Origin: Tidjanibacter massiliensis
GTDB lineage: Bacteria; Bacteroidota; Bacteroidia; Bacteroidales; Rikenellaceae
Direction: 5' to 3'
Assembly (NCBI RefSeq): GCF_900104605.1
Contig: NZ_LT629960.1
Span: 1,860,001-1,924,000 of the forward strand
DNA length: 64,000 nt
Shown piece after piece: positions 6,009-36,706 of this stretch (the first letter of the stretch is position 1; each line of letters starts with the position of its first letter). Below the pieces are notes generated by a model, which had not been told where the DNA came from, ran no database searches, and was given only the letters and a program-made list of their open reading frames with translations. A program made the position numbers and the translations under genes.

Positions 6009-7076
6009 ATGACTGAATACGAAAACAGGATAAAATCGGTACTCGGCGGCATCGTGCATCCGGAAACGGGAGAAGATATCGTTTCATCGGGTATCGTCGA
6101 GCATATCACGGCCAACGGACAGGATGCAGTCATCACCCTCGCCTTCCGCAAACGGCGCGACCCGTTCGCCAACTCCATCAAACGGCAGGTAACAGCGGCA
6201 GTGACCGAAGCATTCCCCGAATTGGCCGGCAAGATAGCCGTTACGGAAAAGGAAGAGGCTCCGGCACCGCCCGTAAAAGAGAAAGTATCCTCCACGGCTG
6301 GCATACGACATATCCTCGCAATCGCCTCCGGCAAGGGAGGAGTCGGCAAATCGACCGTCACGGCCAACCTGGCCGTAACGCTACGCGACATGGGTTACAG
6401 CGTCGGAATACTCGATGCGGATATCTACGGACCCTCCATGCCGAAGATGTTCGGCGTTGAAGGATATACGCCGCAGGCAATTCTCCGCGACGAACAGGAG
6501 TACATCCTGCCGGCCGAAACCGGAGGCATCAAAATCGCCTCGATAGGTTTTTTCATCTCGCCCGACGACGCTCTTATCTGGCGCGGCCCCATGGCGACGA
6601 CCGCCCTGAAGCAACTGCTCCATCAGACGCTTTGGGAAGGACTGGACTATCTGCTCATCGACCTCCCTCCCGGAACGGGGGATGTCCACCTTTCGGTAGT
6701 CGGAGAGGTAAAGGTAAACGGAGCCATCGTGGTTTCCACACCCCAGCAGGTGGCCGTGGCCGACGTGCGGCGCGGCGTGAACATGTTCCGCGCAGAGGGC
6801 ATCGACGTACCCGTACTCGGTATCATCGAAAACATGGCCTGGTTCACTCCGGCGGAACTCCCGAACAACCGGTACTACCTGTTCGGAAAGGGGGGAGCAC
6901 GGAACATGGCCCGTACCGAAGGCATCGATTTTCTCGGAGATATTCCTATCGTCCAATCGGTTATGGAAGGTGGTGAGAACGGAACGCCGGCAGTATCCAT
7001 CCATCCGGAAGTAAAAAAATACTATCGGGAGATAGCGGACAAGATTGTCGAAAAGCTGGAAAAAACCGACCGCTGA
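6009..7076 (+). CDS. mrp: Mrp/ApbC-type Fe-S carrier ATPase
   Basis: A 355-residue P-loop ATPase of the Mrp/NBP35 family, which bind and deliver iron-sulfur clusters. An N-terminal DUF59/MIP18 domain covers about residues 5-80, followed by a Pro/Glu linker. The deviant Walker A GKGGVGKST is at 108-116, and DLPPGTGD at about 219-226 is the switch/Walker B region. The usual C-terminal CxxC that bridges a cluster between two subunits is absent: the equivalent stretch after ENMAWF reads TPAELPNN. Unlike its neighbours, the coding strand shows no G excess, as expected if it lies on the lagging strand left of an origin. It directly abuts the candidate oriC. Confidence 0.93.
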   Translation: MTEYENRIKSVLGGIVHPETGEDIVSSGIVEHITANGQDAVITLAFRKRRDPFANSIKRQVTAAVTEAFPELAGKIAVTEKEEAPAPPVKEKVSSTAGIRHILAIASGKGGVGKSTVTANLAVTLRDMGYSVGILDADIYGPSMPKMFGVEGYTPQAILRDEQEYILPAETGGIKIASIGFFISPDDALIWRGPMATTALKQLLHQTLWEGLDYLLIDLPPGTGDVHLSVVGEVKVNGAIVVSTPQQVAVADVRRGVNMFRAEGIDVPVLGIIENMAWFTPAELPNNRYYLFGKGGARNMARTEGIDFLGDIPIVQSVMEGGENGTPAVSIHPEVKKYYREIADKIVEKLEKTDR

Positions 7077-7271
7077 GTGTTGAAAAGCGAGAAAGAAACT
7101 GTTCGCAAATGTTGAAAGATTCCCCCTTTTCCAGCTGGGAAATGCCGTCAATCCGTATATACGGGAATACGAAGGAAAAAAACAAGGAAAATCTTTCATC
7201 GGCCGTTACGGAATTATCGACAGCATCTGCACACGGGCAGGCATCCGTTTTGCCGCTGTCGATATGTTGAT

Positions 7272-7285
7272 AACATTATGAACAG
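7272..7285 (+). repeat. Direct repeat AACATTATGAACAG, copy 1
   Basis: This 14-base sequence directly follows a TTATCAACA-type nonamer on the minus strand. It is identical to 7568-7581. Confidence 0.75.
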
Positions 7286-7567
7286 CTATTGACAACTCCG
7301 CCGCTTCCCTCCGCCGGACGCATCCTCTCCTTGCGACACACAAGATAGGGAGAAAGGCACCGACAAACGGACGGACAAGACATGATGAAGACGGAAAACG
7401 GAAAAATGCCGCCCTATCTGAAAGTTACATGGCTGTTTTTCAGTAATATATATACAAAAAACTGAAAGACACATGGATAAAGCGAAGTCATGCGGACACT
7501 TTCCTACCGGGAGCAATGTTGATAATTTTTGGCAATTTGTCCGGAAAGCGGAATATAAGGAGTTATC

Positions 7568-7581
7568 AACATTATGAACAG
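7568..7581 (+). repeat. Direct repeat AACATTATGAACAG, copy 2
   Basis: Identical to 7272-7285. Here it overlaps the plus-strand TTATCAACA (7563-7571) and abuts the AT-rich tract. Confidence 0.75.
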
Positions 7582-7642
7582 GCTTTATTATTGTTATTTT
7601 CTTTTTAAGATTTAATTAAGAAATAAATAAAAAAATAAAAAG

Positions 7643-8578
7643 ATGGCTGACAACACGACTCTGGCGGATAAGATAGCGGCGTTGAAAAGAGAGAAGAACG
7701 CCGTGATTCTCGCTCATTACTATACGCGGCCCGAAGTGCAGCAGGTGGCGGATTTCATCGGGGATTCCCTCGCACTTTCCCAGGCCGCAGCGGCGACCGA
7801 TGCGGACATTATCCTTTTTGCGGGCGTCTATTTCATGGCCGAGACGGCCAAGGTGCTGTCGCCGGGGAAAAAGGTGCTGATACCCGACCCGGCTGCCGGG
7901 TGTTCCCTGGCCGATTCTTGCAGCGCTGCGGATTTCCGCAGGTTCCGCGAACGGTATCCCGACCATAAGGTGGTGGCCTATGTCAATACCTCGGTTGAGG
8001 TGAAGGCACTGACAGATATCTGTTGTACCTCGTCCAACGCCGTGAAAATCATCCGGGCGCTGGAGGGACAGAAGATACTGTTCGCCCCGGACCGCAATCT
8101 TGGGGATTACCTGAAGCGGGTGACCGGCCGCGACGACATCGTGTTGTGGGACGGAGCGTGTCATGTGCATGAGAAATTCTCGCTCGAAAAGATTCTCGAA
8201 CTGAAAAGGGAACATCCGGACGCCAAGGTGCTTGCCCATCCCGAATGCAAGAAACCGGTGCTGCTGGCTGCCGATTTTGTGGGGAGTACGGCGGCTATCA
8301 TTGATTACGTAGGTTCCGATGGCGGGAAGAAGTATATCATCGTAACCGAATCGGGTATCTTGTTCGAACTGCAGGAGAAGTATCCGGAAATCGATTTTAT
8401 TCCGGCTCCTCCGACGGATTCCACCTGCGGATGCAACGACTGCGAATATATGAAACTCGTGACGCTCCCGAAGATATACGATGCGCTTGTGAACGAATCT
8501 CCCGAAGTCGTGATTGACGAGGAGGTGAGGCGCCGGGCCGAGGGCTCTATCCGCAACATGCTCGGCATGTCGAAATAG
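7643..8578 (+). CDS. nadA: Quinolinate synthase A
   Basis: This 311-residue [4Fe-4S] enzyme condenses iminoaspartate with dihydroxyacetone phosphate to quinolinate in de novo NAD synthesis. The three-fold repeated fold is recognisable. Cluster ligands are expected at Cys87 (PAAGCSLADSC), Cys173 (WDGACHVHE) and one Cys of the 262-267 TCGCNDC group. Substrate-contact segments AHYYTRPEVQ (24-33) and AHPECKKPV (198-206) are also present. nadB and nadC are not in the window, so the pathway is split. The gene starts immediately after the AT-rich end of the candidate origin; the promoter probably lies inside that tract. Confidence 0.96.
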   Translation: MADNTTLADKIAALKREKNAVILAHYYTRPEVQQVADFIGDSLALSQAAAATDADIILFAGVYFMAETAKVLSPGKKVLIPDPAAGCSLADSCSAADFRRFRERYPDHKVVAYVNTSVEVKALTDICCTSSNAVKIIRALEGQKILFAPDRNLGDYLKRVTGRDDIVLWDGACHVHEKFSLEKILELKREHPDAKVLAHPECKKPVLLAADFVGSTAAIIDYVGSDGGKKYIIVTESGILFELQEKYPEIDFIPAPPTDSTCGCNDCEYMKLVTLPKIYDALVNESPEVVIDEEVRRRAEGSIRNMLGMSK

Positions 8579-9438: not shown

Positions 9439-10473
9439 TTATTCCGGCATCTTTGCCGGATGGAAGAACTCTGTTACGGCCTGTTCGAATCTCGCTACGG
9501 TCTTTTCAATGGTATCGTAGGATTTGCCTCCCGAGGCGTTCTTGTGTCCCCCTCCGTTGAAATATTTGGAAGCGAACAGGCTGACGTCCACATCTCCCCG
9601 CGAACGGAAGGAAATACGGATGAACTTGTGGGTTTCTATGAACATCGCGGACATCTGTACGGATGCAATCGAGAGTGGATAATTGACGAATCCCTCGCTG
9701 TCGCCTACTTGAAAGTCGAAACGCCTCATTTCATTCTCTTTCAATGCTATGTACGCTGCCCGTCCGTTCTCTATCATGCGCATCTTGTCGAGCAGCACAT
9801 AGCCGAGCAGCCGCACTCTTCCTTCGCTGTAGGAGTTATAGACCTTCGAATTGATGTCGGGGATGTTGATTCCTTTCTCGATGAGTCCCGCAACGGCCCG
9901 GAACAGTCCCGGGGTGAGGAAACTGAAGGAGAAATTGCCGGTGTCGGTCATTATCCCGACGTAGAGCGACTCGGCCGCCTCCCGGTCGAATACGTCGAGT
10001 CCCGTCAGCCTTTCCGTTATCTGGTAGACCAGGTAGGAGGTGGAACAAGAGGTGGGGTCGGAGAATACCAATGTATATTCGTCCGTCGGCGGGTCGAGGT
10101 GATGGTCTATCAGTATCCTGACTGCTTTCCGGTTATCAATGATGTGACGGCTGAGATTTTCGAGCCGGTCTATCCGGTTGAAGTCGAGAAAGAAGATGAT
10201 GTCGGCATTGTCCACCGCACCGATGGCCCGTTCGTTCTCCTCTTTGGCGATGATGACGTCCCGGATACCCGGCATCCAGGAGAGGAATCCGGGATATTTG
10301 TTTGGAACGAGGCACTGTACGTCATGGCCGAGCGAACGGAGCACTTTGGCCCAAGCGAGCGAAGAACCGATGGCGTCTCCGTCCGGATTGGTATGCGCCA
10401 GAATGGCGATGTGTTTCGGAGTGTCGGTTATGTATCCTTTCAGTATTTCGATTTTTTGTTCCAAATCTTTCAT
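9439..10473 (-). CDS. nrnA: DHH-family bifunctional oligoribonuclease / PAP phosphatase
   Basis: A 344-residue phosphoesterase of the NrnA type that degrades nano-RNA and dephosphorylates pAp. The N-terminal DHH domain has the metal-binding motifs AHTNPDGDAIGSS (about residues 26-38), FLDFNRIDRLE (about 92-102), IDHHLDP (about 119-125) and GIMTDTGNFSFS (about 167-178). The C-terminal DHHA1 domain carries GGGHKNASG near residue 308. The ATG at 10473 is used; a TTG two codons earlier is unlikely to be the start. It converges on apt and diverges from manA. Confidence 0.93.
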   Translation of the reverse strand: MKDLEQKIEILKGYITDTPKHIAILAHTNPDGDAIGSSLAWAKVLRSLGHDVQCLVPNKYPGFLSWMPGIRDVIIAKEENERAIGAVDNADIIFFLDFNRIDRLENLSRHIIDNRKAVRILIDHHLDPPTDEYTLVFSDPTSCSTSYLVYQITERLTGLDVFDREAAESLYVGIMTDTGNFSFSFLTPGLFRAVAGLIEKGINIPDINSKVYNSYSEGRVRLLGYVLLDKMRMIENGRAAYIALKENEMRRFDFQVGDSEGFVNYPLSIASVQMSAMFIETHKFIRISFRSRGDVDVSLFASKYFNGGGHKNASGGKSYDTIEKTVARFEQAVTEFFHPAKMPE

Positions 10474-10665
10474 ACACAAACAATTCTCTGCCTTCCTCTC
10501 ACGTTTTTTCCTTGTCGCCGATAGACGAAGTTACGAATTTTACCCGAAATAAAAAATTCAGCGGTTTCCTCCCTGTCCGCTATCCTGTACGGCCGGAAAG
10601 CGGAACGATGCCTGCGGGGTTCTCCGAATGTGCGTCTGATACGAATGTATCGACGGATATTTTCG

Positions 10666-36628: not shown

Positions 36629-36633
36629 TCCGG

Positions 36634-36706
36634 AGCCGCAACCGAGACTTGAACTCGGGACCTCTTCATTACGAGTGAAACGCTCTACCAACTGAGCTAT
36701 TGCGGC
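36634..36706 (-). tRNA. tRNA-Thr, anticodon CGU
   Basis: 73 bases folding as a complete cloverleaf: acceptor GCCGCAA/TTGCGGC, D-arm GCTC/GAGC, anticodon stem TTTCA/TGAAG with loop CTCGTAA (anticodon CGT, reads ACG), T-arm CCGAG/CTCGG with loop TTCAAGT. The discriminator base is U, as suits threonine. The CCA end is not encoded (the next bases are CCG). Confidence 0.95.

Follow-up and report, generated by a model that had tools for sequence, protein, structure and literature searches.

The window analysed in this study is a 64,000-nucleotide stretch (C8:1860001-1924000) of the 2.19-Mb contig C8 of Tidjanibacter massiliensis, whose genome comprises 2,390,301 bp in 8 contigs. Within it, a gene-free gap of 566 bases separates the stop codon of mrp (7076) from the ATG of nadA (7643) (Table 1). 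These boundaries reproduce those given in the initial annotation, which had proposed the gap as a candidate chromosomal replication origin (oriC), and the gene directions around the gap are also as described there; on the right, a DHH-family gene (9439-10479) runs leftward. Of 567 nadA loci found, 80 were kept, and among these the closest named relatives by nadA identity are Candidatus Tidjanibacter gallistercoris, at 87%, and an uncultured Tidjanibacter, at 78%. The only tRNA gene found in the window is a tRNA-Thr (CGT) at 36632-36706 on the minus strand.

Table 1 Features of the predicted oriC region and of the dif-like site (window positions unless a contig is given).
Feature	Position	Strand	Evidence or remark
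mrp (NUBPL/ParA-type iron-sulfur P-loop NTPase), left flank	6009..7076	+	Pfam PF10609, E 1.8e-89
Gene-free gap, predicted oriC region	7077..7642	.	Skew switch, DnaA-box cluster, conservation; holds unwinding module and A+T-rich tract
Near-match TTTTCAACA	7078	-	One mismatch to TTATCAACA
DnaA box TTATCGACA	7214..7222	+	Mean identity 0.78 (8 rows including window)
DnaA box TTATCAACA	7265..7273	-	Mean identity 0.90 (8 rows including window)
DnaA box TTATGAACA	7276..7284	+	In 14-base unit 7272-7285; mean identity 0.85 (8 rows)
DnaA box TTATCAACA	7517..7525	-	Mean identity 0.74 (8 rows including window)
Tandem pair, first box TTATCAACA	7563..7571	+	Mean identity 0.89 (8 rows); model hit 7563-7599, E 1.2e-7
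Tandem pair, second box TTATGAACA	7572..7580	+	Abuts first box; in second 14-base copy (7568-7581); mean identity 0.81 (8 rows)
GGC, short GC cluster separating boxes from trios	7581..7583	+	Sequence
Eight DnaA-trio-type triplets	7584..7607	-	Middle A, lower strand 3'->5'; rule-based search (PMC8287927, PMC7561715)
A+T-rich tract, probable DNA unwinding element	7584..7643	.	55/60 A+T
nadA (quinolinate synthase), right flank	7643..8578	+	Pfam PF02445, E 7.7e-122
dif-like 28-mer	C8:736763-736790 (outside window)	both	21/28 to a dif consensus; intergenic

The gap contains three exact copies of TTATCAACA, a nonamer with one mismatch to the DnaA box, and no other copy is present in the 64 kb. They are accompanied by four one-mismatch relatives of TTATCAACA (one TTTTCAACA, one TTATCGACA and two TTATGAACA), and a 14-mer, AACATTATGAACAG, is duplicated at 7272 and 7568 and nowhere else. 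All of these elements had been listed in the initial annotation and were recovered, as was the A+T-rich 60-base tract, which at its peak ends on the first base of nadA; elsewhere in the window the A+T content never reaches 51/60. The gap holds six copies of TTATNNACA, whereas a Markov model of its own composition predicts 0.097 (at least six in 0/5000 trials); three further copies lie across the remaining window. Genome-wide, the overall enrichment of TTATCAACA is slight (27 copies versus 21 for the reversed control word), and its copies cluster in the gap alone, the next closest pair being 1.9 kb apart. A DnaA-box cluster in an intergenic gap, one of the marks by which an oriC is recognized, is thus single in the genome, and the many equal clusters that had been named as evidence against an origin were not found. 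Another such mark, an A+T-rich element adjoining the boxes, is present at the window maximum, its melting being predicted.

At 7563-7607, the gap carries an ordered module, in which TTATCAACA and TTATGAACA stand head-to-tail and are followed by GGC and eight triplets leading into the A+T-rich tract beside nadA. The triplets have a middle T on the top strand, that is, a middle A on the lower strand. The module fits the published rule for the DnaA basal unwinding system (BUS; PMC8287927), which asks for a box with at most 2 mismatches, a second box at most 3 bp away and, inside the permitted spacer, three or more NAN triplets; here, the boxes show 1 and 2 mismatches to TTATCCACA, the box gap is 0, the triplets number 8 and the trio spacer is 3 from the second box and 12 from the first. 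Under a search rule stricter than the published one (at most 2 mismatches in both boxes and at least 5 triplets), the module was found once in the window, whereas 600 kb of sampled genome sequence (5 kb of which overlaps the window's left end), 20 Markov sequences of 64 kb and 4000 sequences of gap composition all lacked it; the last of these controls rules out chance in an A+T-rich gap. The module also agrees with the trio form given in the accessible text of PMC7561715, '3'-[G/A]A[T/A] n>3 preceded by a GC-cluster'. The box-proximal trio here is AAA on the lower strand, not the favoured 3'-GAT-5', which is the most frequent form and not a required one; several relatives have CTATTAT after the boxes, giving 3'-GAT-5'.

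Conservation of the module and its boxes in relatives

Conservation was assessed with a leave-one-out matrix over 72 loci; nine of 81 had been removed because of their length or because too little upstream sequence was present. In 62 of the 72 rows (window included), the top-scoring position of the locus was no more than 600 bp upstream or 100 bp downstream of the nadA start, and 55 of these 62 hits were on the nadA strand. Twenty column-shuffled matrices placed a mean of 28.7 (21-38) of 72 hits upstream versus the 62 of the real matrix, and A+T richness was rejected as the cause of the hits. A model, R1, was trained on 29 nadA-adjacent sites with the window and the Tidjanibacter-labelled locus L058 excluded; some of its training sites may share a genus or species with the genomes searched. 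In the T. massiliensis genome, R1 gave a single hit at E <= 0.1, the one in Table 1 (67 of 587 first-look candidates scored). Across 100 Rikenellaceae genomes, 78 had a hit at this threshold and 22 had none. In 59 of the 78 (T. massiliensis included), the best hit was on the nadA strand, 21-188 bp upstream of the gene; in 15 it lay elsewhere, and no nadA was found in the remaining 4. Among 151 genomes of the order, 37 had an R1 hit at E <= 0.01, and in 8 of the 33 outside Rikenellaceae the hit adjoins nadA as judged by eye; G210, G244 and G229 had no hit at this threshold, though skew turns at nadA there.

Two features would fit a gap that is just the promoter or leader of nadA, with incidental A+T richness and DnaA-like nonamers: its position immediately before nadA and a single weak promoter-like match that overlaps 7563-7591. 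Promoter-like sites, however, occur at the level of chance (2 versus a mean of 1.6 in shuffles), and neither the skew switch nor the conservation of the boxes would be explained. Moreover, five of the 19 genomes with the best R1 hit elsewhere or without nadA were inspected, and in four of them the module stays behind mrp even where nadA was not found (G045 and G038, the latter judged from an antisense frame) or lies on another contig (G015 and G064); in G047 it is not beside mrp. The promoter-only reading was rejected on this ground and is exceedingly improbable.

The boxes themselves are conserved. Over 8 rows, in which the window row counts itself, identity to the window is 0.83 for six boxes and 0.40 for the non-box part of the gap, and random sextets match this conservation in 1/5000. 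The rows are the window, L058 and six same-genus-labelled genomes, 8 of 10 having been kept; one of the dropped rows was empty and the other seemingly identical to L058 over the gap. A plain 18-mer search with at most 2 mismatches matched 28 of 100 family genomes and is too weak a test, since the reversed control also matches many.

GC skew and the positions of dnaA and a dif-like site

Within the window, GC skew turns from about -0.13 to +0.10 near 7 kb. The initial annotation had expected the cumulative minimum of the complete genome at the gap; that of C8:1845001-1924000 lies at window position 6671, inside mrp and 406 bases from the gap, so that on sampled sequence this expectation holds. 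Skew was followed over 600 kb of samples besides the window, with a right arm that spans contig joins, and raw skew reflects gene direction as well as replication. All 14 stretches (20 kb each) sampled between 722 and 1865 kb of C8 have negative skew, and on the other arm the C8 samples at 20-660 kb and 1880-2187 kb and both samples of contig C7 are positive; values at 660-720 kb are between 0.001 and 0.022, and over 640001-720000 the cumulative curve peaks at C8:710859. The samples thus agree with a skew minimum at the locus, as expected of an oriC, except for C8:1-20000, where skew is -0.059 within the otherwise positive arm, perhaps owing to an inversion or acquired DNA.

In relatives, the sign of skew flips at nadA in both G008 and G087, the latter with a noisier background, and it also turns there in G210, G244 and G229, which belong to three other families; wrong-sign stretches are present in G087, G210 and G229. 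No clear switch at nadA was seen in G013 and G217. In G013:C1:1574001-1765000, several sign changes surround nadA (1662337) and the best module hit (1589067), a pattern suggestive of a rearranged origin region. Of 81 rows (80 nadA loci and the window), 31 were set aside for short flanks; among the 50 with at least 4 kb on both sides, skew is negative to the left and positive to the right in 34, and the minimum lies at most 1.5 kb from nadA in 26. The minima of Alkaliflexus imshenetskii (L134) and Breznakibacter xylanolyticus (L120) are 68 and 51 bp upstream of nadA, respectively.

Two further readings of the gap bear on these data. Clustered DnaA boxes are also a feature of control sites of the datA or DARS type, which counts in favour of the gap being a DnaA-binding control site near the origin, involved in titration or reactivation like those of E. 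coli. This reading is extremely unlikely, given that the gap sits at the skew minimum and has a tandem-box/trio/A+T module and that no second cluster was found in the genome to serve as the origin. The gap might instead be half of a two-part origin whose other half is located outside it, perhaps within mrp or past nadA: the skew minimum is 406 bases inside mrp, the C. difficile origin is two-part, and H. pylori is cited as another such case in the accessible text of PMC7561715. The gap alone, however, contains the box array and the unwinding module, and no further TTATCAACA cluster was found in the window or the genome, leaving a two-part origin very unlikely.

The sole dnaA found (likely start C8:730027, end 731451; domain C8:730432-730920) is 1.137 Mb from the gap, in keeping with the separation of origin and dnaA that the initial annotation had anticipated; adjacency to dnaA is a usual and not a defining property of an oriC. 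Along the 1156 kb that separate oriC (1867.3 kb) from the skew maximum (710.9 kb), dnaA is reached after 1137 kb, 98% of the way. Downstream of it are recA and a RelA/SpoT-type gene, as named from their translations. In six genomes with usable skew (T. massiliensis included), dnaA lies 63-98% of the way toward the terminus; the fractions of the relatives, taken from the bounds of the sign change with the wrong-sign stretches in G087, G210 and G229 set aside, are 80-88% (G008), 84-92% (G087), 76-83% (G210), 80-88% (G244) and 63-69% (G229). The nadA-dnaA distance is 0.60-0.97 of half the genome in 14 genomes among the matches listed (G000, G008, G013, G027, G040, G049, G057, G087, G175, G187, G210, G217, G229 and G244), each with nadA and dnaA on one contig holding most of the genome; some genome sizes were rounded. 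Also among the matches listed, nadA and dnaA are separated by about 7 kb in G169, 141 kb in G125 and 370 kb in G222, which weakens the notion that dnaA is always near the terminus; nadA may fail as an oriC marker in these three. In G169:C7:55574-64150, from Bacteroidales, the 7-kb spacing leaves room for oriC and dnaA themselves to be close together. A copy of TTATCAACA was also observed at C8:730031-730039, in the first codons of dnaA (ATG GTT ATC AAC A, start 730027), possibly as an autoregulatory DnaA box or by chance.

The dif-like 28-mer lies 5.3 kb downstream of the dnaA stop and 26 kb from the skew maximum, in intergenic DNA near the skew switch opposite oriC, where a dif site is expected. 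It was scored against a dif (XerC/XerD) consensus, and its score is equalled at C8:1901640 in the window. When the site was used as a query on 4.0 Mb, the second-best match (23/28) was in G011, from another genus, 1.07 kb downstream of dnaA, and the other short dnaA loci (about 3 kb each) gave no match above 20. In five dnaA flanks of 9-12 kb, the site was found downstream of dnaA in G019 (27/28, 5.4 kb), G011 (23) and G002 (21, 5.6 kb) and was absent from G037 and G016; seven more flanks score 16-19, and in several of them dnaA opens the contig, with one side visible. A dif-like site thus follows dnaA in 4 of 13 genomes (T. massiliensis included), ruling out that dif always lies beside dnaA. 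The G011 and G002 scores are not decisive alone, because shuffled queries over the five flanks reach a maximum of 23 (at least 22 in 5/200 runs). In G000, G019 and G002, the site is nevertheless flanked by the same two genes, an XRE-type regulator preceding it and a ZnuA-type gene following it (both named from their translations). In each of the four genomes the site is free of overlap with any retained open frame, and 20 of 48 columns of its alignment are invariant. We infer that C8:736763-736790 is a putative dif.

The DnaA protein aligns with 8btg, presumably a B. subtilis-type DnaA, over residues 11-472 (E 8.6e-93), and its recognition motif is GGKNHATV where 8btg reads GGRDHTTV. Among 27 Rikenellaceae dnaA loci, seven were missed by the first motif search, three of which were read with a looser search and four remained unread; the motif is N-H-A in 22 of the 23 readable loci and D-H-A in one (G011). 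In those 22 loci, the helix reads (K/R)NHA versus RDHT in B. subtilis-type DnaA (L371, L354-L380, domain IV). Of 31 aligned origin sites, 20 have A at position 6 of the first box, 8 have G and 3 have C, the base found in TTATCCACA. Residues of this helix contact the box in E. coli DnaA structures, and we suggest that the N-H-A change may be linked to the purine at box position 6.

The predicted origin and known systems

The skew switch, the unique box cluster, the unwinding module and the conservation of this module support the reading of the initial annotation, and the gap at 7077-7642 is very probably the chromosomal replication origin. On sequence evidence, its identity as an ordinary DnaA-type origin in an unusual chromosomal layout is nearly certain. 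By analogy with studies of other bacteria, we infer that DnaA binding, unwinding and helicase loading take place at the gap. DnaA, encoded near the opposite pole, would bind the tandem pair as well as the boxes scattered over 7214-7525, extend from this pair across GGC to the lower strand of the triplets, and stretch that strand, opening the A+T-rich DNA ahead of nadA. The helicase would then be loaded there, and forks would depart both ways.

A broader joint reading, which we hold to be rather doubtful, is that in part of Bacteroidales oriC is anchored at mrp/nadA, that dnaA (with recA) is held by dif and copied last, that dnaA dosage acts as an end-of-round signal for the next initiation, and that the DnaA helix (N-H-A for D-H-T) and the box (purine at position 6) changed together. 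If true, the layout would be opposite to the textbook plan, with the dose of the initiator gene rising only as a round ends. Should dnaA-dif proximity hold generally within part of the order, it would offer a natural test of how the dnaA-oriC distance affects replication timing. The present analysis narrows the origin, by sequence criteria, to a 566-base gap in a gut lineage in which origins are easily misplaced when position 1 is set at dnaA, and sequencing-coverage estimates of growth rate require the true origin.

Prevotella intermedia, a member of Bacteroidales like T. massiliensis, provides a close comparison in layout. The accessible parts of PMC4755523 describe oriC as commonly far from dnaA in Bacteroidetes, and the chromosome-1 oriC of P. 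intermedia OMA14 was likewise predicted there via skew and DnaA boxes at a distance from dnaA; nadA linkage, a dnaA-dif neighbourhood, the flanks and an unwinding module are not mentioned in those parts. A figure legend in PMC5771137 places the Porphyromonas gingivalis oriC at the first dnaA nucleotide. No published description of a nadA/mrp flank of oriC or of dnaA beside dif was found in the openly accessible literature; an origin of this kind may already be recorded in a database such as DoriC.

As described in the accessible parts of PMC3025954 and PMC3091885, dif sites of other bacteria share with the present candidate a 28-bp imperfect palindrome, an intergenic location and proximity to the skew switch opposite oriC; the site here, a candidate by its match to a consensus, differs in being close to dnaA, and recombination at it is putative. 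The module differs from the BUS of the Bacillus subtilis oriC (DnaA-boxes #6/#7 and DnaA-trios, accessible text of PMC8287927) in that its boxes are TTATCAACA and TTATGAACA and not TTATCCACA, its proximal trio is not GAT and dnaA is not adjacent. It is not claimed as new for the order, because the predictions of unwinding modules in that text span 1755 of 2070 origins across bacteria, and relatives of this module may be included among them. Common to the B. subtilis BUS and the T. massiliensis module are the tandem boxes, the short GC spacer and the middle-adenine triplets on one strand.
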